This document shows, one piece after another, positions 25,453 to 37,580 of a DNA stretch of 64,000 nucleotides; position 1 is the stretch's first letter; each line of letters starts with the position of its first letter. Source of the stretch: Glaciibacter superstes DSM 21135 (GTDB lineage: Bacteria > Actinomycetota > Actinomycetes > Actinomycetales > Microbacteriaceae); assembly GCF_000421145.1 (NCBI RefSeq), contig NZ_ATWH01000011.1, forward strand, positions 124,001 through 188,000, given 5' to 3'. A program made the translations under genes and the position numbers. The notes below the pieces were generated by a model. The model made no database searches, was not told the DNA's origin, and saw nothing but the letters and a program-made list of their open reading frames with translations.

Positions 25453-26229
25453 TCAGGCCGGCTTGACGCCGTAATCCGCGTTGTAGTGCGCGAGTACCTC
25501 TTCGATCGGCGCATCAAGCACCAGGGCGCCCTTGTCGAGGTAGAGGCCGCGCGTGCAGAACCGTTTGAGGTCGCGTTCGTTGTGCGAGACGAAAAACAGC
25601 GTTCGACCGCCCTCGAGGAGCTCCTCAATGCGCCGATAGCACTTCTCCCGGAACGCCTTGTCACCAACGGCCAGCACCTCGTCGACCAGGATGATCGGCT
25701 CCTCGAGGCGAGAGATCACCGCGAACGCGATGCGCACCTTCATCCCGCTGGAGAGGTGCTTGTACGGCGTGTCGATGAAATCGCCGATCTCAGCGAAGTC
25801 GATGATGTCGTCGAATCGAGACTCGATCTGCCGTTTTGTCATGCCGTGCAGGCCCGCGGTGAGGAATACATTGTCCCGAACACTCAGATCATCGACGAAA
25901 CCTCCGGTGATCTCGATCAGCGGCGCAACTCCCTCGGTCACGTGCACGGCGCCCTCGTCTGGCAGTACGACGCCTGTGACGAGCTTCAGGAGGGTCGACT
26001 TGCCCTGCCCGTTCCTCCCGACGACACCGATCGCCTCGCCACGCTGCACGGTGAACGACACGTTCCGCAGCGCCCAGAACTCGCCTGGGCGGCTGCGGCG
26101 CTTTCGTCCGGCGAAGAGATCCTTGAACGTCCGGCGACCGCGCCGATTCCTGCGAAAGCGGATGCCGACATCCGTCAGCCTGATCACCGGGGGAGCGATG
26201 ACCGCGGGCGCGACGCTCTGCTGGGTCAT
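25453..26229 (-). CDS. ABC exporter ATPase, TagH/Wzt-like (no carbohydrate-binding tail)
   Basis: 258 residues. Walker A is GRNGQGKST (71-79), the signature is LSSGMKVRIAF, and Walker B reads IILVDEVLAVGD, all typical of the Wzt/TagH group (ABC-2 polysaccharide exporters). The long C-terminal carbohydrate-binding domain of O-antigen Wzt proteins is absent. It overlaps the permease by one base. Together they export a lipid-linked polymer across the membrane, presumably the product of the genes at 19.4-23.5 kb. Confidence 0.92.
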   Translation of the reverse strand: MTQQSVAPAVIAPPVIRLTDVGIRFRRNRRGRRTFKDLFAGRKRRSRPGEFWALRNVSFTVQRGEAIGVVGRNGQGKSTLLKLVTGVVLPDEGAVHVTEGVAPLIEITGGFVDDLSVRDNVFLTAGLHGMTKRQIESRFDDIIDFAEIGDFIDTPYKHLSSGMKVRIAFAVISRLEEPIILVDEVLAVGDKAFREKCYRRIEELLEGGRTLFFVSHNERDLKRFCTRGLYLDKGALVLDAPIEEVLAHYNADYGVKPA

Positions 26230-27029
26230 CAGATCTCCTTCAGCACAGAACGCTCGGTGCGACTGAAGACGAACGCCCCGAGCGCAAGGAAGGCAACCGA
26301 GACCGTGACGCCGATGCCCACCACGGACCAGTCGAGCTGTTCGGGGAAGAACGCAGCGCGGTACAGGCTGAAAATGCCACTGAGCGGATTGAACGCCGCC
26401 CAGAAATGCAGCTCAGACGGCAAGTCTGCTGTGCCGTAGATGATCGGAGACGCGTAGAACAGGAATCGAAGAATGAGTTTCACCGCGCGCTCGAGGTCCC
26501 GGAAGAACACCACCAGCGGTGCCACCAGCAGGCCGACGCCCGCCGTCAGGACCAGCTGGATGAGGATGGCGAGCGGGAAATAGAGCACTTCGATGTGCAG
26601 TTCGGCTCCGAAGATGATCGCGAACAGGGCGAGAACCGGAATCGACGCCAGAAACTCGATCCCCTTCGAGAGCACCAGGCGATTGACCCAGATCGTGCGG
26701 GGGATCCTCGTCGACCGGATCAGTTTCGCCTCGCGCAGGAACGCGCGGGTACTGTCCGAGACAGCCCCGTTGAACCACATCCACGGGAGAAGCGCAGAGA
26801 GCAGGAACACGATGTACGGCGGTTCACCCACCGTTCGCTGGAACACCTGGGTGAAGACGAACCAGTAGATCCCCGCCATCACCAGCGGGTCGAGGATTGA
26901 CCAGAAGTAACCGAGAAGCGACGTCGAGTAGCGAACCCGCAGATCCCGTTGCGTGAGCAGCCAGAGGGAATGACGGTAGCGCGCAAATGGGGTGCGCTGT
27001 TCGGGGCGCACTGCGGCGTAACTACTCAC
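26229..27029 (-). CDS. ABC-2 exporter permease, TagG/Wzm-like
   Basis: 266 residues from a GTG at 27029, with about six transmembrane segments. The N-terminal 'LLTQRDLRVRYSTSLLGYFWSILDPLVMAGIYWFVF' is the hallmark of ABC-2 polysaccharide permeases, and 'NPLSGIFSLYRAAFFPE' near the end is also conserved. It pairs with the ATPase that follows (one-base overlap) and comes 57 nt after the nucleotidyltransferase gene. Confidence 0.92.
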   Translation of the reverse strand: MSSYAAVRPEQRTPFARYRHSLWLLTQRDLRVRYSTSLLGYFWSILDPLVMAGIYWFVFTQVFQRTVGEPPYIVFLLSALLPWMWFNGAVSDSTRAFLREAKLIRSTRIPRTIWVNRLVLSKGIEFLASIPVLALFAIIFGAELHIEVLYFPLAILIQLVLTAGVGLLVAPLVVFFRDLERAVKLILRFLFYASPIIYGTADLPSELHFWAAFNPLSGIFSLYRAAFFPEQLDWSVVGIGVTVSVAFLALGAFVFSRTERSVLKEI

Positions 27030-27086: not shown

Positions 27087-27779
27087 TCAGACGTACAGGT
27101 TGGCGCGTTCGAGGTCTTCGGCGAAGTCAACCTCGACGGCGTACAGGTCGGAGATGTCGACCGGCTCGACCAGGATTCGGTTCTTCTCGATCGCCAGCTC
27201 GATGCCGCGCTCGAAATAGTCCTGGTCGCCGACCTTGGCGAGGTGGTGAAGCAGGGTCGCCTTGTCGGCGGACGAGATGTAGTTGATCCCGACGGCCTCA
27301 CCGAGTCCGCCCTTGACGGTCTTGGAGAGTTCCTTGATGTAGCCTTCGGCGCTGGTCGTGTACTTGACCTCTTCGTCGGAGACCTTCGCCGTGTTGACGG
27401 TCACGAAGGACTGGTCGCGGGCGATCATCGCCGCTGCACGGTCGAGCACGGTCGGATCGAAGACAACGTCACCGTTCATCCAGAGAACGCCACCGGGAGC
27501 GGATGACTGCAGGGCGCGCATCAGGCTCTTCGACGTGTTCGTCTGGTCATACTGCTCGTTGTACACGAACGACGCCTGCGGAAACGCCTCGATGATGTGC
27601 TCGAGCTTGTAGCCGACAACCACTGTCACCTTGGCGTTGTTGCCGAAGGCGTGCTCGATGTTCTCGAACTGCTGGCCCATGATGGTGCGGCCGTCGCTGA
27701 GTTCGGTCAGGGGCTTCGGCAGGGATCGACCGAGTCGGCTTCCCATGCCTGCTGCGAGAATGACTACCTGGGTGGTCAC
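27087..27779 (-). CDS. Nucleotidyltransferase, choline/polyol-phosphate cytidylyltransferase-like
   Basis: 230 residues from a GTG at 27779, chosen because AAGGAG precedes it by about 7 nt; a TTG six codons upstream would place this RBS inside the frame. The N-terminal loop is VILAAGMGSRLGRSLPKPL (activated-phosphate binding), and LWMNGDVVFDP holds a metal-binding Asp. This is the GT-A-like fold of LicC-type and sugar-phosphate nucleotidyltransferases. With a CDP-alcohol enzyme and a CDP-glycerol-type polymerase nearby, CTP as donor is plausible, but the substrate is not shown. Confidence 0.83.
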   Translation of the reverse strand: MTTQVVILAAGMGSRLGRSLPKPLTELSDGRTIMGQQFENIEHAFGNNAKVTVVVGYKLEHIIEAFPQASFVYNEQYDQTNTSKSLMRALQSSAPGGVLWMNGDVVFDPTVLDRAAAMIARDQSFVTVNTAKVSDEEVKYTTSAEGYIKELSKTVKGGLGEAVGINYISSADKATLLHHLAKVGDQDYFERGIELAIEKNRILVEPVDISDLYAVEVDFAEDLERANLYV

Positions 27780-28038
27780 GATTATCTCCTTTGTCAAGGT
27801 CTGGGTGTGTACTGCAGTCCAACGCCGCCAGATCTACTTCGCCTGGCGAGTTTGCATACAGTTCACCCATAAGTTCACGTCAAGACACACCGTTATGTCA
27901 TGATCCACCATAACCCGGCGCCCATTTGGGGGGAAGGGCAGACTGCCCTGCGTGTCCGTTTCGTAATGGCTTATTCGGTGTTTTCACAGGCAACTCGGAA
28001 CATTTCGCCGCAAGCAGCCGATGTCTGACGGTCCTTGG

Positions 28039-28053
28039 TAGGTTAGCGAGGTG
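28039..28053 (+). promoter_or_regulatory. Leaderless promoter of the tailed ABC ATPase
   Basis: TAGGTT (28039-28044), 6 nt, then the GTG at 28051, following a 250-bp divergent region from the nucleotidyltransferase. A leftward -35-like TTGACG is at 27878-27883 with a weak -10 17 nt away, possibly serving the exporter operon. Nothing else is recognised in 27798-28038. Confidence 0.5.
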
Positions 28054-29805
28054 ACTTCTGTGCCGCCGAATTCCCAGCCCGACGAGACGACAATCGCCTC
28101 GCGTGGAGACGACGCCCCGACACCGGAGGAAGTCGCCGCTGCACCGAAGAGAACGCCGCGGAAACCTCCCGTCCGAAAGACCCAGGCGAAGAGCGCCGAG
28201 AACACTGCGATTACAGCGAACGCCGCGAGCACAGCAGATGTCACTGACGACGAATCGGCTGGGCCGGCGGCAGCACGGCCCGCGGCCGCGTCGAAAACTG
28301 CTGCATCCCGGACGACGCCCTCCAAGACGGCTGCCTCCAAAACGGCCGCCTCCAAAGCAGCCGCCGCGAAGGCTGCCACCGCAAAGTCGGCTGCGGCGAC
28401 GGCAGGCGCAGCGAAGACTGCGGCATCAAAATCAGAAGCAACAAAGTCGACCACCGCACGATTGACGGCCGCGAAGTCGACAGCTGCCAAGACAGCCGCT
28501 GCCAAGACGACCGCCGCGAAGGCCGCCTCTCTGAAATCTGCGGCCGAGAAGTCCACTGCGGCCAGGGCGAACGCCGCAAAGTCCGCCGAGGCGCGCAACA
28601 CGTCGGCTGAGAAGTCGACGGCGGCACGGAGTGCGGCAGCCAAGGCAGCGGCTGCTGCACGGGCACGAACGGACAAGACCGCCCGATCCGTTGCAGACTC
28701 TGCCGCTGCAGCGGAACCGCAGCGGACAGCCGCACTTGCCGAGGCGCCTGGGCGAACTGTTGCAGAGCGCCACGGGCCAGAGGCGACGACGATGCCGAAG
28801 GTTGCCGAAACGAAGGCTGCCGAAACGAAGTTCGCAGAACTCGAGTTCGCAGAACCCGAGATCTTCGAGCCGAACATCGCGGCCACAGAAACTGCAGTGC
28901 TGAAAATTGCAGAGCCGGATATTGCAGAGCCGAGGACTTCAGAGCCGACGGCGGCTCCCGACGTCAAGCCCGCTCTCAAGCCGGTTGCAAAGCGCACTCC
29001 TCGCGCTGCGGCCAGGAAGAAACCGGCGCCAGTCGATAAGTCCGCTCCTGTTGTGCTATCGGTGTCGAACCTGGAGAAGCGCTTCGGGCAGAACGTCGCG
29101 GTCGCGGGTGTCGACCTTGAGGTACGCGCCGGTTCGTTCTTCGGCATCGTGGGTCCGAACGGCGCCGGAAAGACCACGACGCTCTCGATGATCACCGGCC
29201 TGCTGCGCCCGGACACCGGCAGCATCCGCGTACACGGCATCGATGTGTGGGCAGACCCGCTGGCCGCCAAGCGCATCATCGGCGTGCTTCCAGACCGGCT
29301 CCGTCTGTTCGACCGGCTGACCGGCGCACAGTTGCTCTATTACGCCGGCATCCTTCGCGGACTCGACGACGAGACGGTGCGCTCGCGCTCGGCAGACCTT
29401 GCGGCGGCTTTCGGGCTCGACGATGCTCTGGGCCGGCTTGTCGCTGATTACTCGGCAGGCATGACGAAGAAGATTGCCCTGGCCTGCGCGATGATCCATT
29501 CACCGCGGGTACTGGTTCTCGATGAGCCGTTCGAATCGGTCGACCCGGTCTCTGCCGTCAACGTCACGGAGATCCTGCAGAAGTACGTGGCGAGCGGCGG
29601 CACCGTGGTGCTCTCCAGTCACGGCATGGACCTCATTCAACGCGTCTGCGATAACGTTGCGATCATCGTTCAGGGTTCCGTGCTCGCCAGCGGCACCATC
29701 GACGAGGTCAGGGGCGCGATGTCGCTGGAAGAGAAGTTCGTTGAACTCGCAGGAGGGCGAAAAGTCGCGGAAGGCATGGAGTGGTTGCACAGTTTCTCGG
29801 ACTGA
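28051..29805 (+). CDS. ABC transporter ATPase with a 330-residue histone-H1-like N-terminal tail
   Basis: 584 residues. Residues from about 332 form an ordinary ABC ATPase: LEKRFGQNVAVAGVDLEVRAG, Walker A GPNGAGKTT (367-375), signature DYSAGMTKKIALA, Walker B VLVLDEPFESVDP. Residues 60-235 are almost only Ala, Lys, Ser, Thr and Arg (KTAAAKTTAAKAA, KSTAARANAAKSA), like histone H1 or HupB tails. Residues 245-310 are acidic pseudo-repeats (AETKFAELEFAEPEI). The tail reads as continuous coding sequence with no stop. The 3' end overlaps the permease gene by 25 nt. Transport substrate is unknown. Confidence 0.88.
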   Translation: MTSVPPNSQPDETTIASRGDDAPTPEEVAAAPKRTPRKPPVRKTQAKSAENTAITANAASTADVTDDESAGPAAARPAAASKTAASRTTPSKTAASKTAASKAAAAKAATAKSAAATAGAAKTAASKSEATKSTTARLTAAKSTAAKTAAAKTTAAKAASLKSAAEKSTAARANAAKSAEARNTSAEKSTAARSAAAKAAAAARARTDKTARSVADSAAAAEPQRTAALAEAPGRTVAERHGPEATTMPKVAETKAAETKFAELEFAEPEIFEPNIAATETAVLKIAEPDIAEPRTSEPTAAPDVKPALKPVAKRTPRAAARKKPAPVDKSAPVVLSVSNLEKRFGQNVAVAGVDLEVRAGSFFGIVGPNGAGKTTTLSMITGLLRPDTGSIRVHGIDVWADPLAAKRIIGVLPDRLRLFDRLTGAQLLYYAGILRGLDDETVRSRSADLAAAFGLDDALGRLVADYSAGMTKKIALACAMIHSPRVLVLDEPFESVDPVSAVNVTEILQKYVASGGTVVLSSHGMDLIQRVCDNVAIIVQGSVLASGTIDEVRGAMSLEEKFVELAGGRKVAEGMEWLHSFSD

Positions 29806-31355
29806 AGCTCCGACTCCTCGCCAACCTGTTCCGGCGGAGCCCATGGCGGGTTGTCGGCCTGGCGATCGGCCTTCTCTATGGTCTTGCCGTCGCCATTGCC
29901 GTCGTCGTCTTCCTGATCACGTTGCGCTTTGTCGGTGACGTCGAGGTCATTCGCACCTGGATGATCCTCGTCGGCTCGCTGGTCGTTCTCGGCTTCTTCG
30001 TCGTGCCCCTTGTGCTCGGAATCGACGACAGCATGGATCCTCGGAAATTCGCCCTCTTCGGCGTCCCAAACCGCAGCCTGTCGTTCGCGCTCGCCGTGTC
30101 GGCACTCATCGGAGTGCCGGCGGTCATGCTCGCCCTTGTGCTGATCGGCACCGTCGTCACCTGGTCGCGTGGTTTCGGCGAGACCATCCTCGCGCTCGTC
30201 GCCGCAGCGATTCTCCTTGCCACCTGCCTTCTGGCGTCACGGGTCAGTACGGGGTTGGCGGGGCTGCTGCTGTCCACCCGTCGCTCCCGTGAGTTCTCCG
30301 GGGTCATCGGCATCCTCCTGCTCGTACTCGCGGCGCCGATCGTGGTCGTGATTCTCACGATCGACTGGGGCACAGAAGGCGCTGGCATTCTCACAGACGT
30401 GGCCGGGGTGCTCGGCTGGACGCCCCTCGGCGCCGCGTGGGCGGTGCCCGCCGATGCATCGTCTGGCGACTGGGGGCCGGCCATACTCAAGCTGCTCATC
30501 GCCACACTGACCCTGGGTGTGCTCTGGCTTTGGTGGCAGGGACTGGTCGCGCGCATGCTGGTCACACCGGGGCGTGAAGCGAATCTGAAGCAGTACTCCG
30601 GACTCGGCTGGTTCGACCGGATGCCGCACAACGCGCTCGGTGCCATCGCGGCACGCAGCATCACCTACTGGGGCAGGGATTCGCGTTACTGGGTCGCGCT
30701 CATCATGATCCCGATCGTTCCGGTGCTCGTTGTGCTTCCGCTGACCATTGCCGGAATACCGGCCAACTATCTCGCCCTGTTGCCGGTACCGCTGATGTGT
30801 GTGTTCCTGGGATGGACGATGCACAACGATGTCGCCTACGACAACACGGCAATCTGGCTACACGTCGCATCCGGAACCCGAGGTGTCGCCGACCGCATCG
30901 GCCGTCTGGTTCCTGCTTTGTTCGCCGGCATCCTGGTCATCGGCCTCGGATCGGCCATCAGCGTGTATTTCTTCGGCGACTGGGCGGCCCTCGCGTCTGT
31001 ACTTGGTGTCAGCACCTGCATCCTGCTCGCTGGCCTCGGGTTCTCCAGCTACACCTCCGCGCGCTTCCCGTACCCCGCGACCAAACCGGGTGACAGCCCG
31101 TTCGCCCAACCACAGGCCACCGATACGGCAGCGGCCATCGTGCAGTCCCTCAGCTTCGCCGGAACGATCATCCTGTCTCTCCCGGCGCTCATCTTCGCCA
31201 TCCTCGGAATCTTCTCAGACCCAGCGTGGCACCTGGCCGCCCTGTATGCAGGGGTCGGCGTGGGACTGCTGGCTGTGTGTGCCGGAATCTGGCTCGGTTC
31301 GCGCGCCTTCGAACGACGCGGCCCCGAGATGCTCGCCTCCGCCGTACGCGCGTAG
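29781..31355 (+). CDS. ABC transporter permease, large integral membrane protein
   Basis: 524 residues from a GTG at 29781, preceded by GGAAGG. About twelve hydrophobic segments, and no periplasmic domain. It overlaps the ATPase gene by 25 nt and is clearly its partner. The paired segments and lack of FtsX or ABC-2 consensus recall large actinobacterial permeases of undefined transporters. Substrate and direction are not readable. Confidence 0.85.
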   Translation: MVAQFLGLKLRLLANLFRRSPWRVVGLAIGLLYGLAVAIAVVVFLITLRFVGDVEVIRTWMILVGSLVVLGFFVVPLVLGIDDSMDPRKFALFGVPNRSLSFALAVSALIGVPAVMLALVLIGTVVTWSRGFGETILALVAAAILLATCLLASRVSTGLAGLLLSTRRSREFSGVIGILLLVLAAPIVVVILTIDWGTEGAGILTDVAGVLGWTPLGAAWAVPADASSGDWGPAILKLLIATLTLGVLWLWWQGLVARMLVTPGREANLKQYSGLGWFDRMPHNALGAIAARSITYWGRDSRYWVALIMIPIVPVLVVLPLTIAGIPANYLALLPVPLMCVFLGWTMHNDVAYDNTAIWLHVASGTRGVADRIGRLVPALFAGILVIGLGSAISVYFFGDWAALASVLGVSTCILLAGLGFSSYTSARFPYPATKPGDSPFAQPQATDTAAAIVQSLSFAGTIILSLPALIFAILGIFSDPAWHLAALYAGVGVGLLAVCAGIWLGSRAFERRGPEMLASAVRA

Positions 31356-31368
31356 GATTACGGCTATG
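31353..31368 (+). promoter_or_regulatory. Leaderless promoter of the DUF3039 gene
   Basis: TAGGAT (31353-31358) lies 7 nt before the ATG at 31366 and overlaps the permease stop codon, so the DUF3039 gene can be expressed separately and without a 5' UTR. Confidence 0.55.
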
Positions 31369-31653
31369 ACCAACGACTTCCGTGTGAGCATTGCCGAGCC
31401 AGGAGCGCCAGGCGGCGGTACGTCGACCCTCGACAGCGAGCTCGAAGAACTGCTCGAACAGGAGCAGATCGAACCCGGTGACCACGAGCGGTTCTCGCAC
31501 TACGTGCCCAAAGACAAGATTCTCCAGTCGGCCATCAGCGGCAAGCCCGTGCGCGCACTGTGCGGCAAAAAATGGCTGCCTGGCCGCGACCCGGAGAAGT
31601 TTCCGGTGTGCCCGACCTGCAAAGCCATCTACGAGAAGATGAAGGGCGAGTAG
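31366..31653 (+). CDS. DUF3039 protein, small putative zinc-binding protein
   Basis: 95 residues, family DUF3039, widespread in actinobacteria. H45, C66 (RALCGKKW), C82 and C85 (VCPTC) are placed to bind one zinc. The acidic first half (LDSELEELLEQEQIEPGDHERFSHYV) is typical. Function is unknown. It stands next to pncB here, a neighbourhood I recall from other actinobacteria. Confidence 0.9.
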   Translation: MTNDFRVSIAEPGAPGGGTSTLDSELEELLEQEQIEPGDHERFSHYVPKDKILQSAISGKPVRALCGKKWLPGRDPEKFPVCPTCKAIYEKMKGE

Positions 31654-33083: not shown

Positions 33084-36000
33084 CTATCGCAGTGCCGAGA
33101 TGCGCAGCACGATCGACTTCAGGTTCTGGATGCGCTGTTCATAGCGCGCCGCGAGCACGATCAACAGGACGCCGCCGGCGCCGAGCCATAGCCACCACGG
33201 AACCGCGCCGTAGGCGACGGAGATCCACGGCCACAACTGGGCGACGGCGTGAATCAGAAGAACAACGGCACCGATGAGGAATGGCGCCTGGAGCCTGCGC
33301 ACAGCGCCCACCACGAGCACGGCGATGGCGAGCACGCCCAGTGCGACCACCCGCCAAAGCGGGTTCGAGTCCAGATCGAGCAGGAGGGAGGGCGCAAGCA
33401 GGACGAGGAGCCCCGGTGCCAGCCACGGCCAGCTGCGCGCCTTCACAGCGGCGTCCAGGTGCAACCATCCTGTTGTGAGGAGTGCCAGCGCGATGGGAAC
33501 GGTGACGATCTCCAGCGGATCGGGTGCCCCACGGGTGAAGCCGGCAACCGCAGCGGCGGCAGCTGATGCAATGGCCACCCACGCGACAGGTACCGTCCAC
33601 GGTCGCCGGTTGTACCAGAAGGCGCACACGTGCAGAGCGGCGAAGAGCCACGCTAGCAGGCCGATACGGATCGTGGTCAGCTGCGAGTAATCGAGAGCGC
33701 CGATCTCGACGATGAGAATGCCGAGGATGGACGCGATCACGAGCACGGTTGCGACGACTGTCCTGGTGTCTCGTGTCGCTCGGGCGTCTCCAGGCTCGCC
33801 ATCGTCTTGCGCGGTGCCGGTGCGTACGATCAGCGTCGCGGCAATCATGACGAGGAATGCGGCCGGGAGCAGCCAGCCCTCCACCCGGGCATCCGCCTCG
33901 GTGCCGGGAGCAGACAACAGCGGCAGAAGCTGGCCCGCTGCGGTGACAACGACGGCGATGAGCCCGACAACAAAGGCCGGCCAGGCGAAGGACTGCCAGC
34001 GCGGTCGGTTGCAAAGCAGCGCGCCGGCAATGGTGACCAGTCCACCGACAATGAGCACGAGCACGGGCCTGAGCACTGTGCCGTCTGATGCGACTGTGCC
34101 GTCTGATGCGACCGTGCCGTCTGACGAGACGAGAGCGCTCGGCACCAGCCCGATCACGAGGGCAATGGATGCGAGCGCCGTGCTCGCGCGTGAGCGCAAC
34201 CGCGTGCTCTGTGCATCCGTGCTCTGTGCATCCGTACTCTGGGCATCCGTGTGCCTGACCAGCAGAACGGCCGCCACGATCGCCACCAACGCGGGTGCGG
34301 CGAGCCAGGCGTCGAAGCGGAGATCCGTTGTGCCACCCAGGTCTGCGGTGCTGAACAAGCGACTTGACTGGCTGATCGAGACTGCGAGGAGGCCGATCGC
34401 GCCCGCCAGACCTGCGGCTCCGAGATAGTGCGACCGGCTAGGCGTCCACCGCACCGCGCAGGCAACAAGCAGAAGCACGCCGGCAACAACCCCGACGACC
34501 AGGGCTTTGAATGGTGGTTCGATCGGCGCAAGTACGGCGATCGGCACGAGGGCCAGCACCAGCGCGACGAAGACCAGCAACGCTGCGACCGGACTGGTCG
34601 CCGCGTTGCGATCGACACGACCGAAGCGGCGGATCAGGTACGCCACGATGAGCAGAAGCGCTGCCACCGGCAGCACATACGCCTCGACAGCTTCGGTGCC
34701 GCTACTGTCAAGACCCATCCAGAGCGCTGCAGTTGCCAGAACGATTGAGACCCAACCGAGGTGACGACGGGGTGACCGGGAAGCGAACAATCCGTCGTCC
34801 GCACACGCTGCGACCAGGGCCGTCAGAGCGGCCATCAGGAGTACCAACCAGGCCAGAGTCGAATCGGTTACCACGATGAGAGAAGACATCGCTGCGAAGA
34901 ACACAGCGGGAACGAGCACGAGCGCGGCGCCGATCTCCAGAGCGATGCGGATGCGCACGCCCTGCTCTGGGCCGCTGTGGCTCTCATCACTCGGTCTCGT
35001 ATCGCTTCGGGATGCGAATCGGCCCACAAGCGCCGCGACAACAACAAGAAGGGCAACGGCCGGTGCGACGACGACACGCACTTCTGTCGTCGTACCCAAC
35101 GCGTCGGCTACCGAGTCCGCGAGTAGCAGCGCGGCGAAGGCGACGGCGGCGGCCGCGACCAGGCGCTCCACTTTGAGTGCGTACAGGGCGCCACGGAGAA
35201 CCCACACGATCGCCGCGGCCAGGAGAAGGGCGGCGCGCACTATTGAGGCGACAGGTTCAGGCTGTAGCAGCCCTGCCTGTTCCTGTGCATCCAGATTGGG
35301 TACGAGGGCGCCGACGTCCACAGTGAGGGCCACGATTGTGGGCAGGAGCAACGTCCAGAAGGCCCACCGGCGTTCTAGGGGTGTGAGCGCTCCACGCGCC
35401 ACGATCGCAATGATGAGCTGAAGGATGCCGGTGGCCAGAGCGAGGCCCGCAACACTGTTGACCAGGCTTGCGTCCACCCCAGGGTGAGCGGCCAGCATCA
35501 GCGCCAATGGCGCGTACGCGGCAGCGATCATGGTGAGGACAATGGCAACGGAAAGCAGGATCGCTCGCGCTGGGCCGGCAGGCCCCGCGAGATACCTCGC
35601 ACAGAATGCGGCGACAACCGCAGACACCGATCCGATCCACCACGTATCCGTGCTGGCCCAACTGACGAGGTAGCCGATGGCAACCGCGCCGGCAAAAAGA
35701 GCGATGAGGTGCGGTCGGAAGCTGCCGATCTCCACGCGTCGAATGAGGGCTGTCAGAAGCACGATGAGAGCGGCAGCGCCGAGCAGCAGGTAGCCGGCCA
35801 GTACCAGGACAAGTACTCCGGCCAGGGCAGGGAGCAGCAGAATGACGACCACGGCCAGCCAACCGACCCAACCACGCCTGGGCGCGAGTAGCCGCGCGGC
35901 GCCCCAGAACAGAATGGTCAGGGCGCCGACTGCGGCGAGGGCCAGGACGGCCCAGATGTTCTCAGCACGGGGTTCCGAGACCGGGCTGCCTGCGCCCGTC

Positions 36001-37580
36001 ACTCCTCGTGCAACGGACTCCGCCAACGGAAACACTGCGTAACCAGCGGTGAGCAGGGCGAAAAGCCCCGCGAAGGCCGCCGCGGTGATGCCGGCGCTCA
36101 TCGTCGGGGCGCGAAGTCGACCATTCGATTGCCGCCTGACGAGCGCCTCAGCCGAGAGCGCAAGCACGACGGCGACGACGATCGGGGCAGTGACGGCGAG
36201 GGTCACATCCTCCAGACGCGTTGCGAGAGCGGGGGCGACGGCAACCAGGGCGAACGCGCCCAGTGCTGCGGCAGCCGACGCGAAGAAGCGCGCTGCGCCA
36301 CCAGGGGCTTGGCCGACTCTCAGCACTGACCGTTCGACGGAGATAGTGGGTGAAATCGGCCGAATCGATCCTGATTCGCCCAGAATCTCCGTCGAACGGT
36401 CGTGAACGGGGCCAGCGAGTGCCACCCGGACATGGGCAAAGGCGACCAGGCCAACGACCAGCAGTGACCAGAGTGGCGCCCAGTCGGATTCCGATTCCAC
36501 AGCGAAGGCAACCAGCACCGCCCCGACCAGGGAGAACCCTCCGATGGAGTACAGAATGACGCGTTCCGCCTTCTGCCCCGTGTGGGTGAAGCGATGCAGC
36601 AACGCCGCAATCGCAGCACCGGCAAAGAGCAGGAACCAGCGTGTGGTGGTGTCGAGGTTCGGGGTGAGCCCAGCGAAGAGCAGACCGAGTCCGGGCGGAG
36701 CAGCGGCGAATCCGGCCACGCTGGCCACCCGGAGACCAGAAAGCGCGTGCCAGCCGAGGAACAGGGCGGCGCAGACGAGCAGGGCAATTCCCCAGTACAG
36801 TGGCCCGTCGGTGTCACCCAGCCCGAACATGTTGTTCTGCCTGATCGCCCAGGCGTCGAGCACCACCAGCACAACGGCGAGTGCGCCGATGCCCTCCGCC
36901 GTTGCGACGAGGTGTTTGCGGCGCAGGACGGCGGCGGTCGCGAGGGCGGCAGCGGTGAGCAGCCCGACGATCGCGGAGCGGAACTCAAGACCGGCGAGCA
37001 GCCAGGCGACCGTGAGGAAGAAGATAGCGGCAATGCTGACCAGAGAGACTCCGACGATGAGCAGCACGATCTGCACGCTGGAGCGCTTCGACTGGCGCGC
37101 GGTCCCGGTGGGTATGGCGGGCTGCGCGGCTGGCAGAGCAGCAGGAGCAGGTGGTGATGCAAGAGGCGCGGCCAGCGGGGGAGCCGCTACCTGCGACGCT
37201 TCCTGCGGCGCGCCGGCAGCGGGCGGGATCGGAAGCGGGGCCGGAGCCTGGATGGCACGTCCCGGTGCCTGCTTCTCGGCGTACGCGCGCTGCGCGTGCG
37301 CGACATCAAAACGGATGCGTCCGATGATCGACGCGCGCTCGTTCAGCGACGCCGCGGCATCCGTCGACGCTTTCAACAGCTGTGCTGCCGCCGGATGACG
37401 CAGGTCGAGCCCGCACGACGTGCAGACCTGGCCTGGAAGCGTCGTGAAGCAGGCAGGGCAGAGTGCGGAATCGGTGAGCGCGGCGGCGTTCTCCGGCCAG
37501 ATGATTCGACCGACGTACCTCGCATAACCGTCGTCAGATGGTGTTTCCGGCAACGCTTCCCCCGATCGGCCCGTGATCAC
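33084..37580 (-). CDS. Giant multi-pass membrane protein with N-terminal zinc ribbon (SCO7613-type)
   Basis: 1498 residues. The N-terminus has a zinc ribbon (C41xxC44 and C53xxC56: CPACFTTL, VCTSCGLD), then a short helical region, an Ala/Pro linker (about 115-165) and some forty hydrophobic segments to the end. I recognise the layout of the actinobacterial SCO7613 C-terminal-domain membrane proteins, whose function is unknown. Start: a GTG at 37580, or a TTG at 37553 preceded by GGGGGAA, which looks better. Internal short repeats (TDAQS and SDGTVA) are tandem DNA duplications. It lies between pncB and murI. Confidence 0.85.
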   Translation of the reverse strand: MITGRSGEALPETPSDDGYARYVGRIIWPENAAALTDSALCPACFTTLPGQVCTSCGLDLRHPAAAQLLKASTDAAASLNERASIIGRIRFDVAHAQRAYAEKQAPGRAIQAPAPLPIPPAAGAPQEASQVAAPPLAAPLASPPAPAALPAAQPAIPTGTARQSKRSSVQIVLLIVGVSLVSIAAIFFLTVAWLLAGLEFRSAIVGLLTAAALATAAVLRRKHLVATAEGIGALAVVLVVLDAWAIRQNNMFGLGDTDGPLYWGIALLVCAALFLGWHALSGLRVASVAGFAAAPPGLGLLFAGLTPNLDTTTRWFLLFAGAAIAALLHRFTHTGQKAERVILYSIGGFSLVGAVLVAFAVESESDWAPLWSLLVVGLVAFAHVRVALAGPVHDRSTEILGESGSIRPISPTISVERSVLRVGQAPGGAARFFASAAAALGAFALVAVAPALATRLEDVTLAVTAPIVVAVVLALSAEALVRRQSNGRLRAPTMSAGITAAAFAGLFALLTAGYAVFPLAESVARGVTGAGSPVSEPRAENIWAVLALAAVGALTILFWGAARLLAPRRGWVGWLAVVVILLLPALAGVLVLVLAGYLLLGAAALIVLLTALIRRVEIGSFRPHLIALFAGAVAIGYLVSWASTDTWWIGSVSAVVAAFCARYLAGPAGPARAILLSVAIVLTMIAAAYAPLALMLAAHPGVDASLVNSVAGLALATGILQLIIAIVARGALTPLERRWAFWTLLLPTIVALTVDVGALVPNLDAQEQAGLLQPEPVASIVRAALLLAAAIVWVLRGALYALKVERLVAAAAVAFAALLLADSVADALGTTTEVRVVVAPAVALLVVVAALVGRFASRSDTRPSDESHSGPEQGVRIRIALEIGAALVLVPAVFFAAMSSLIVVTDSTLAWLVLLMAALTALVAACADDGLFASRSPRRHLGWVSIVLATAALWMGLDSSGTEAVEAYVLPVAALLLIVAYLIRRFGRVDRNAATSPVAALLVFVALVLALVPIAVLAPIEPPFKALVVGVVAGVLLLVACAVRWTPSRSHYLGAAGLAGAIGLLAVSISQSSRLFSTADLGGTTDLRFDAWLAAPALVAIVAAVLLVRHTDAQSTDAQSTDAQSTRLRSRASTALASIALVIGLVPSALVSSDGTVASDGTVASDGTVLRPVLVLIVGGLVTIAGALLCNRPRWQSFAWPAFVVGLIAVVVTAAGQLLPLLSAPGTEADARVEGWLLPAAFLVMIAATLIVRTGTAQDDGEPGDARATRDTRTVVATVLVIASILGILIVEIGALDYSQLTTIRIGLLAWLFAALHVCAFWYNRRPWTVPVAWVAIASAAAAAVAGFTRGAPDPLEIVTVPIALALLTTGWLHLDAAVKARSWPWLAPGLLVLLAPSLLLDLDSNPLWRVVALGVLAIAVLVVGAVRRLQAPFLIGAVVLLIHAVAQLWPWISVAYGAVPWWLWLGAGGVLLIVLAARYEQRIQNLKSIVLRISALR
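34078..34250 (-). repeat. In-frame tandem duplications inside the giant membrane protein gene
   Basis: Two clusters. Around 34078-34128 an 18-bp unit (top strand near GTGCCGTCTGATGCGAC) is present three times, giving SDGTVA repeats. Around 34205-34250 a 15-bp unit near GTGCTCTGTGCATCC occurs three times, giving TDAQS repeats. Both keep the frame and sit in predicted loops. Confidence 0.75.

Follow-up and report, generated by a model that had tools for sequence, protein, structure and literature searches.

Lysine-rich, low-complexity tails of actinobacterial proteins are described on proteins that bind DNA: In the accessible part of a review, lysine repeats are listed on Streptomyces TopA, HrdB, Ku and HupS, and no transporter is named in that text (PMC7398561); the tail of HupB is reported, in the portion of the paper available, to increase DNA affinity (PMC5676037). 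As far as these texts go, the tails of HupB/HupS, TopA and Ku are Ala/Lys-rich, histone-H1-like extensions at the C-terminus of DNA-binding proteins and carry PAKK/KAAK motifs (PMC5676037, PMC7398561). The tail treated here has the same Ala/Lys-rich, low-complexity character, whereas it is N-terminal, resides on a transport ATPase, follows a five-residue step and is usually accompanied by an acidic block. In the literature searched, which was limited in scope and partly represented by titles and the beginnings of abstracts, no description of a tailed ABC transporter was found; within these bounds, no earlier report of a lysine-repeat tail on such a protein was encountered.

The gene lies in a window of 64,000 nucleotides (the whole stretch of DNA that was analysed; Glaciibacter superstes DSM 21135, contig NZ_ATWH01000011.1, positions 124,001 to 188,000). 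Its open reading frame is a single gene encoding a tail (residues 1–333) that is predicted to be disordered and an ABC ATPase (residues 334–584; Table 1). The initial annotation had described a basic tail and an acidic block on a genuine ABC ATPase, and this architecture is borne out by the composition, the PF00005 match and the clade-wide start box; the basic part, however, comprises about 135–155 residues instead of about 175, and the acidic block is only mildly acidic (12 D/E versus 5 K/R in residues 245–303, arranged in AEP/AET steps). Within residues 70–222 (153 aa), A/K/S/T/R account for 89% (28 K/R, 7 D/E), as in the Ala/Lys-rich low-complexity tails of lysine-repeat proteins, and basic residues recur at a step of five (21 K/R pairs five apart in residues 79–222 versus 4.8 expected from shuffles). 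The globular part, in contrast, is not a DNA-binding protein but an ABC ATPase, with ABC_tran and the overlapping AAA_21 as its only Pfam matches. DNA-level duplication as the sole source of the five-residue step was rejected, given that just four 15-bp patches with 2–3 copies each were present in the tail DNA of the window. A search of Rfam gave no match.

Table 1. Features of the tailed ATPase locus (window coordinates)
Feature	Position	Strand	Description or basis
NTP_transf_3 gene, divergent	27087..27797	-	conserved neighbour, not claimed in the mechanism; Pfam, synteny
Extended -10 box (TGG TAGGTT)	28036..28044	+	12 nt upstream of the start codon
Tailed ABC ATPase gene	28051..29805	+	584 aa, GTG, most likely leaderless start; ORF list and translation
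N-terminal leader, residues 1–69	28051..28257	+	first ~12 residues conserved (MTxVPPxSEPDE in the genus), mixed charge
Basic Ala/Lys/Ser/Thr arm, residues 70–222	28258..28716	+	K/R every five residues, densest in 79–212
Mildly acidic AEP/AET block, residues 245–303	28783..28959	+	composition count
Short second basic piece, residues 304–333	28960..29049	+	adjoins the ATPase; composition count
ABC ATPase domain, residues 334–584	29050..29802	+	Pfam, alignment, structure model
Partner permease	29781..31355	+	524 aa, overlaps the end of the ATPase gene; all-helical in the model
DUF3039 gene	31366..31653	+	conserved neighbour, not claimed in the mechanism; synteny

The ATPase domain is conventional in its sequence: Pfam ABC_tran (PF00005) matches residues 353–494 with 91.3 bits (gathering threshold 25), and the Walker A, signature, Walker B and H-loop positions are occupied by the motifs GPNGAGKT, SAGM, LDEPF and SSHG, most of which does not vary across 12 aligned members of the family; what we take to be the usual Q-loop position reads Asp in all 12. 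The match to the DrrA subfamily TIGR01188 (201.4 bits) remains below the curated cut-off of 312.45, and no NCBIfam name was obtained for the ATPase. In the structure model (alignment of 31 rows), block pLDDT values were 40–65 over residues 1–320, where a single short helix (191–207) was formed in the tail, whereas most values of the domain exceeded 88.

A permease match was located downstream of the ATPase in 142 of 143 loci overall. The window permease, modeled as an all-helical protein (mean pLDDT 85.8), gave no Pfam match and no sequence match in the PDB, and among 49 members only two stray Pfam matches were obtained. Its fold comparison with the PDB yielded no match at 0.001 or better; chain 8k1m_B ranked first (E 0.08), together with 8k1p, NosY chains (E 0.15–0.32) and, close behind, MATE proteins. 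The pair resembles the mycobacterial efflux pump 8k1m–8k1p both in its ATPase (Rv1218c, E 4.6e-35) and in the top-ranked permease fold, although the likeness of the permease to this pump and to NosDFY is weak (E 0.08–0.15) and the ATPase is better matched by ABCA proteins, its best PDB matches (E 1.7e-59). The ATPase–permease pair may, with reserve, be regarded as ABC-2-like. A second ABC ATPase (258 aa) with an ABC2_membrane permease (266 aa) is encoded at 25453–27029 on the minus strand, beside the NTP_transf_3 gene; this pair presumably belongs to the exporters of cell-envelope glycans. A further gene of the window (33084–37580, minus strand) encodes a hydrophobic protein of 1498 aa that had no Pfam match.

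According to the sequence comparison, the tail is a trait of a Microbacteriaceae clade and not an oddity of one genome. All 57 genomes searched of the genus, most likely Cryobacterium, contained an ATPase match at E<=1e-70, the window genome included: Three of these loci were truncated by contig ends, one was frameshifted (L090), and the 53 others (of 54 complete ones) had an assigned tail of 120–571 aa. Of the 299 genomes of the family, 236 gave a match at E<=1e-90, representing 70 genera with the own genus counted; the 20 listed of the 63 genomes without match are mostly small. For the family sample, one high-scoring listed match was taken per genus from 40 of the 69 remaining genera that gave a match, and 11 further loci were added (L165 was removed as a copy of L080); this provided 50 complete tails of 35–722 aa. 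Outside the clade, all 34 homologous loci had a possible start no more than 45 codons away from the domain, some of them with long open frames upstream; the loci, one of which is a duplicate (L169 is the same gene as L115), include Streptomyces, Micromonospora, Nonomuraea, Glutamicibacter and a second Microbacteriaceae paralogue, among them that of the window genome itself.

A tree of 100 rows was built with the genus reduced to the window locus and 14 of its 56 relatives; the best-supported split of this tree (branch support 100/99) divides all 66 clade rows that were sampled from the other 34. The tail-less homologues, which share the ATPase family and the permease with the tailed pair, were found on the opposite side of it, among them eight tail-less Microbacteriaceae paralogues (L116 included) that formed one group (100/98) near Micrococcaceae and other families, a placement that is weak (92/67) and relies on a midpoint root only. 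The paralogue of the window genome belongs to a second ATPase–permease pair (G000:C9:112027-112761; L002, L116), its ATPase being 67% identical and without tail; such a second, tail-less pair was present at E<=1e-70 in 6 of 57 genus genomes. The neighbourhood follows the same division: DUF3039 was found in 104 of 108 clade loci versus 2 of 34 others, nicotinate phosphoribosyltransferase in 102 versus 1, and the divergent nucleotidyltransferase in 98 versus 0, with flank lengths that vary between loci. In the accessible literature, DUF3039 appeared as a table entry among actinobacterial genes and gave no functional clue. The simplest reading of this distribution would be one gain of the tail in an ancestor within the Microbacteriaceae. 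That tails are a general habit of the ABC ATPases of the window genome was rejected on the basis of three further long-frame loci, which proved to be a fused permease–ATPase, an ATPase with a non-coding-looking upstream frame and a two-domain ATPase.

Translation most likely begins at position 28051 on a leaderless mRNA, since the start box is clade-wide and nearly absent from control starts, and since there is a mycobacterial precedent: In mycobacteria, as given in the accessible text, TANNNT is centred 7–12 bp before most mapped transcription starts and one quarter of the genes are leaderless (PMC3898074). The tailed ATPase gene shows this spacing, here taken relative to the start codon. Starts were analysed in 108 clade loci (97 and 11 added ones), of which four truncated at contig ends (L069, L070, L076, L148) did not enter the counts of starts and tails. 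Of the 104 complete loci, 103 had a TANNNT box positioned 12–13 nt upstream of an in-frame start (96 GTG, 7 ATG); TGN preceded it in 101 of 104, and the start assigned by the box was the first in-frame start in 84. Clade starts having been assigned by the box itself, the informative control is given by the other in-frame start codons within the tails: among 934 of them, TANNNT occurred before one and TGN-TANNNT before none. In the initial 97 loci, the box directly preceded an in-frame start in 93, including the truncated L076, whose match is evidently due to chance. In the sole exception, L090, this box and start are preserved but belong to a different reading frame, which points to a frameshift within its tail; it is the only complete genus locus with the conserved start out of the ATPase frame, and its genome (G008) is rated 83% complete. 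A generic -35/-10 promoter scan, which is blind to -10-only promoters, indicated nothing at this spot. By the same comparison, the conserved start is probably leaderless throughout the clade. Translation from near codon 320, which the initial annotation had considered fatal to its reading, is contradicted by the comparison of starts and was rejected: The near-domain GTG codons of the window have no Shine-Dalgarno-like site upstream (5 of 281 near-domain starts across the set have one), and 8 of 101 orthologues with a tail of more than 60 aa possess no start codon anywhere between the 60th codon before the domain and the fifth codon within it.

The tails hardly align, with just the first dozen residues alike among genus members: Their median identity in the genus was 0.39 (120 random pairs) compared with 0.32 for tail against shuffled tail (60 pairs) and 0.85 for the domain. 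What persists is the distribution of charge. All 53 genus tails and 45 of the 50 family tails contained a basic 40-aa window with a net charge of at least +8 (98 of 103; the exceptions are L134, L150, L158, L172 and L254), and an acidic one (-5 or lower) was present in 42 of 53 and 38 of 50, respectively. Charges were segregated (p<0.05, 1000 residue shuffles) in 50 of 53 genus tails and in 41 of 43 family tails of at least 100 aa; with the first 25 residues excluded, 52 of 53 and 37 of 43 tails, respectively, had their acidic centre on the C-terminal side of the basic one. With a cruder measure, the position of the windows in tails having both, basic preceded acidic in 34 of 42 genus and 30 of 36 family tails. 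K/R pairs were in excess at lag 5 (observed/expected 3.18 in the genus, n=52, and 2.42 in the family, n=39) and at lag 10 (2.28 and 1.68), and depleted at lags 2, 3 and 7. The lag-5 excess reached p<0.01 in 78 of 91 tails when whole tails were shuffled and, with shuffles within 30-aa stretches, in 51 of 52 genus but only 21 of 39 family tails. The order of the charges and the step of five residues are maintained beyond mere composition, with the reservation that the species are related, so that the tail counts are not independent and overstate the evidence. Both windows were present in 20 of 20 tails of at least 400 aa. Because short tails retain the basic window more than the acidic one (of 10 tails below 125 aa, 7 had the former, while an acidic window reached -5 in 3 and -8 in none), the basic arm is suggested to be the core of the tail. 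Ten Cryobacterium loci (L061–L068, L071, L072) carry an RRPFWRLPR-like aromatic-basic motif and two family loci (L121, L128) a WPF-containing one; these motifs are located in the C-terminal part of tails that are otherwise almost free of aromatic residues.

In the window genome, the basic block had one other match among the best 150 of 631 candidates, the N-terminal tail of an RpoD-type sigma factor (E 0.002, 44%); further low-complexity relatives may escape such a search. This sigma factor (L266:1501-2874, G000:C2; NF004561 and TIGR02393 RpoD_Cterm, both over cut-off) has a K/R fraction of 0.19 and 10 lag-5 pairs versus 3.1 expected in its first 95 residues, and its basic region is succeeded by a stretch with 34% D/E. 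The tail of this HrdB/SigA/RpoD-type protein is therefore like that of the ATPase in being a basic Ala/Lys/Thr arm with a five-residue step, followed by acidic residues, whereas its globular part is a sigma factor and the weak similarity of the tails may reflect composition and not ancestry; a common build is shown by the sequences, and shared ancestry is not implied. The likeness to tails of DNA-binding proteins seen in the initial annotation holds for the build, as indicated by the sigma factor match and by the lysine repeats in the accessible part of the review, while the likeness to HupB is loose. HupB as the closest relative was rejected for the window genome, where the sole PF00216 match (HU) lies in a 107-aa open frame without long tail.

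Judging from the sequences, the clade protein is the ATPase of an ABC transporter pair with a conserved start and an N-terminal tail that is predicted to be disordered. As a tentative but preferred interpretation, the tail may be an electrostatic arm that binds a cytoplasmic polyanion, with nucleic acid as the best guess because similarly built tails of known role bind DNA. Transporters of this class hold two ATPase copies, and two arms would therefore reach into the cytoplasm, each binding its polyanion electrostatically, most likely nucleic acid in the form of nucleoid DNA or RNA. The acidic block would serve as spacer and competitor that holds the arm off the ATPase and the membrane and weakens its binding, with the net effect of a loose tether or positioning device for the transporter instead of a step in the transport cycle. 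The evidence for the start and its translation, the basic window and its retention in many short tails, the charge segregation, the lag-5 excess, the disorder, the sigma factor parallel and, as far as the accessible texts go, the lysine repeats on DNA-binding proteins are in favor of such an arm. Against nucleic acid as its partner speak the modest K/R density of the window arm (0.19), the net negative charge of 9 of 9 Microbacterium-type tails (-5 to -66; a basic window is nonetheless present in 8 of these), and the 5 of 103 tails without such a window; the aromatic-basic motifs of 12 of 103 tails would suit docking to membrane or protein equally well, and kinship inflates the counts, with the lag-5 excess significant at p<0.01 in only the said 21 family tails.

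It is somewhat unlikely, by comparison, that the tail has no specific partner and acts as a disordered bristle, a spacer or an autoinhibitor of its own ATPase, selected on composition and charge order only. The near-complete turnover of sequence and the range of tail lengths (35–722 aa) would agree with this proposal, and the acidic block might, as proposed in the initial annotation, fold back on the basic one; yet charge order and five-residue step are maintained beyond composition, and the ATPase in general needs no tail, because a possible start lies within 45 codons of the domain in all 34 outside loci. It is likewise unlikely that the tail attaches to the membrane at its anionic inner face, or to a membrane-bound partner, and in this way clusters or regulates the transporter there. 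The ATPase is located at the membrane, which would make the latter the nearest polyanion, and the RRPFWRLPR-like and WPF motifs fit such docking; these are, however, missing from the window and the other 91 of 103 tails, and the closest compositional relative among the best 150 of 631 candidates in the genome is a sigma factor and not a membrane protein. A more specific form of the preferred electrostatic arm, namely a sigma-factor-like arm that was acquired by the transporter and anchors it to the nucleoid or to RNA polymerase engaged in transcription, appears doubtful. Finally, an artefact, i.e. a true start near the ABC domain, the frame of an antisense gene or two genes joined in assembly, is scarcely credible: although the window has an antisense frame of 431 aa without a stop, and 45 of 91 tails of at least 150 aa have one antisense frame open throughout, the remaining 46 do not, and an antisense gene as the true gene was rejected; the start box and the orthologues without near-domain start contradict a start at the domain, and the assembly error that the initial annotation had named as refuting its reading was rejected on the identical join found in separate assemblies. 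The antisense frame over the tail (27984–29279, minus strand) is probably a by-product of codon bias.

The locus shows how a conserved leaderless promoter can stand in for proteomics in locating the start of a protein of low complexity. Much of the family Microbacteriaceae has retained a charge-ordered arm, predicted to be disordered, on a transport ATPase in spite of a near-complete turnover of the arm's sequence, and tails of 35–722 aa, accompanied in the window genome and a few relatives by a tail-less paralogue within one cell, offer a natural series for the function of the tail. Should nucleic acid be the partner of the arm, membrane transport would be linked to the nucleoid, a connection that was not found described in the literature searched, as far as its accessible text goes; and if the arm indeed holds the transporter to the nucleoid or to RNA polymerase, the ABC ATPase would constitute a physical link from the membrane to the chromosome.
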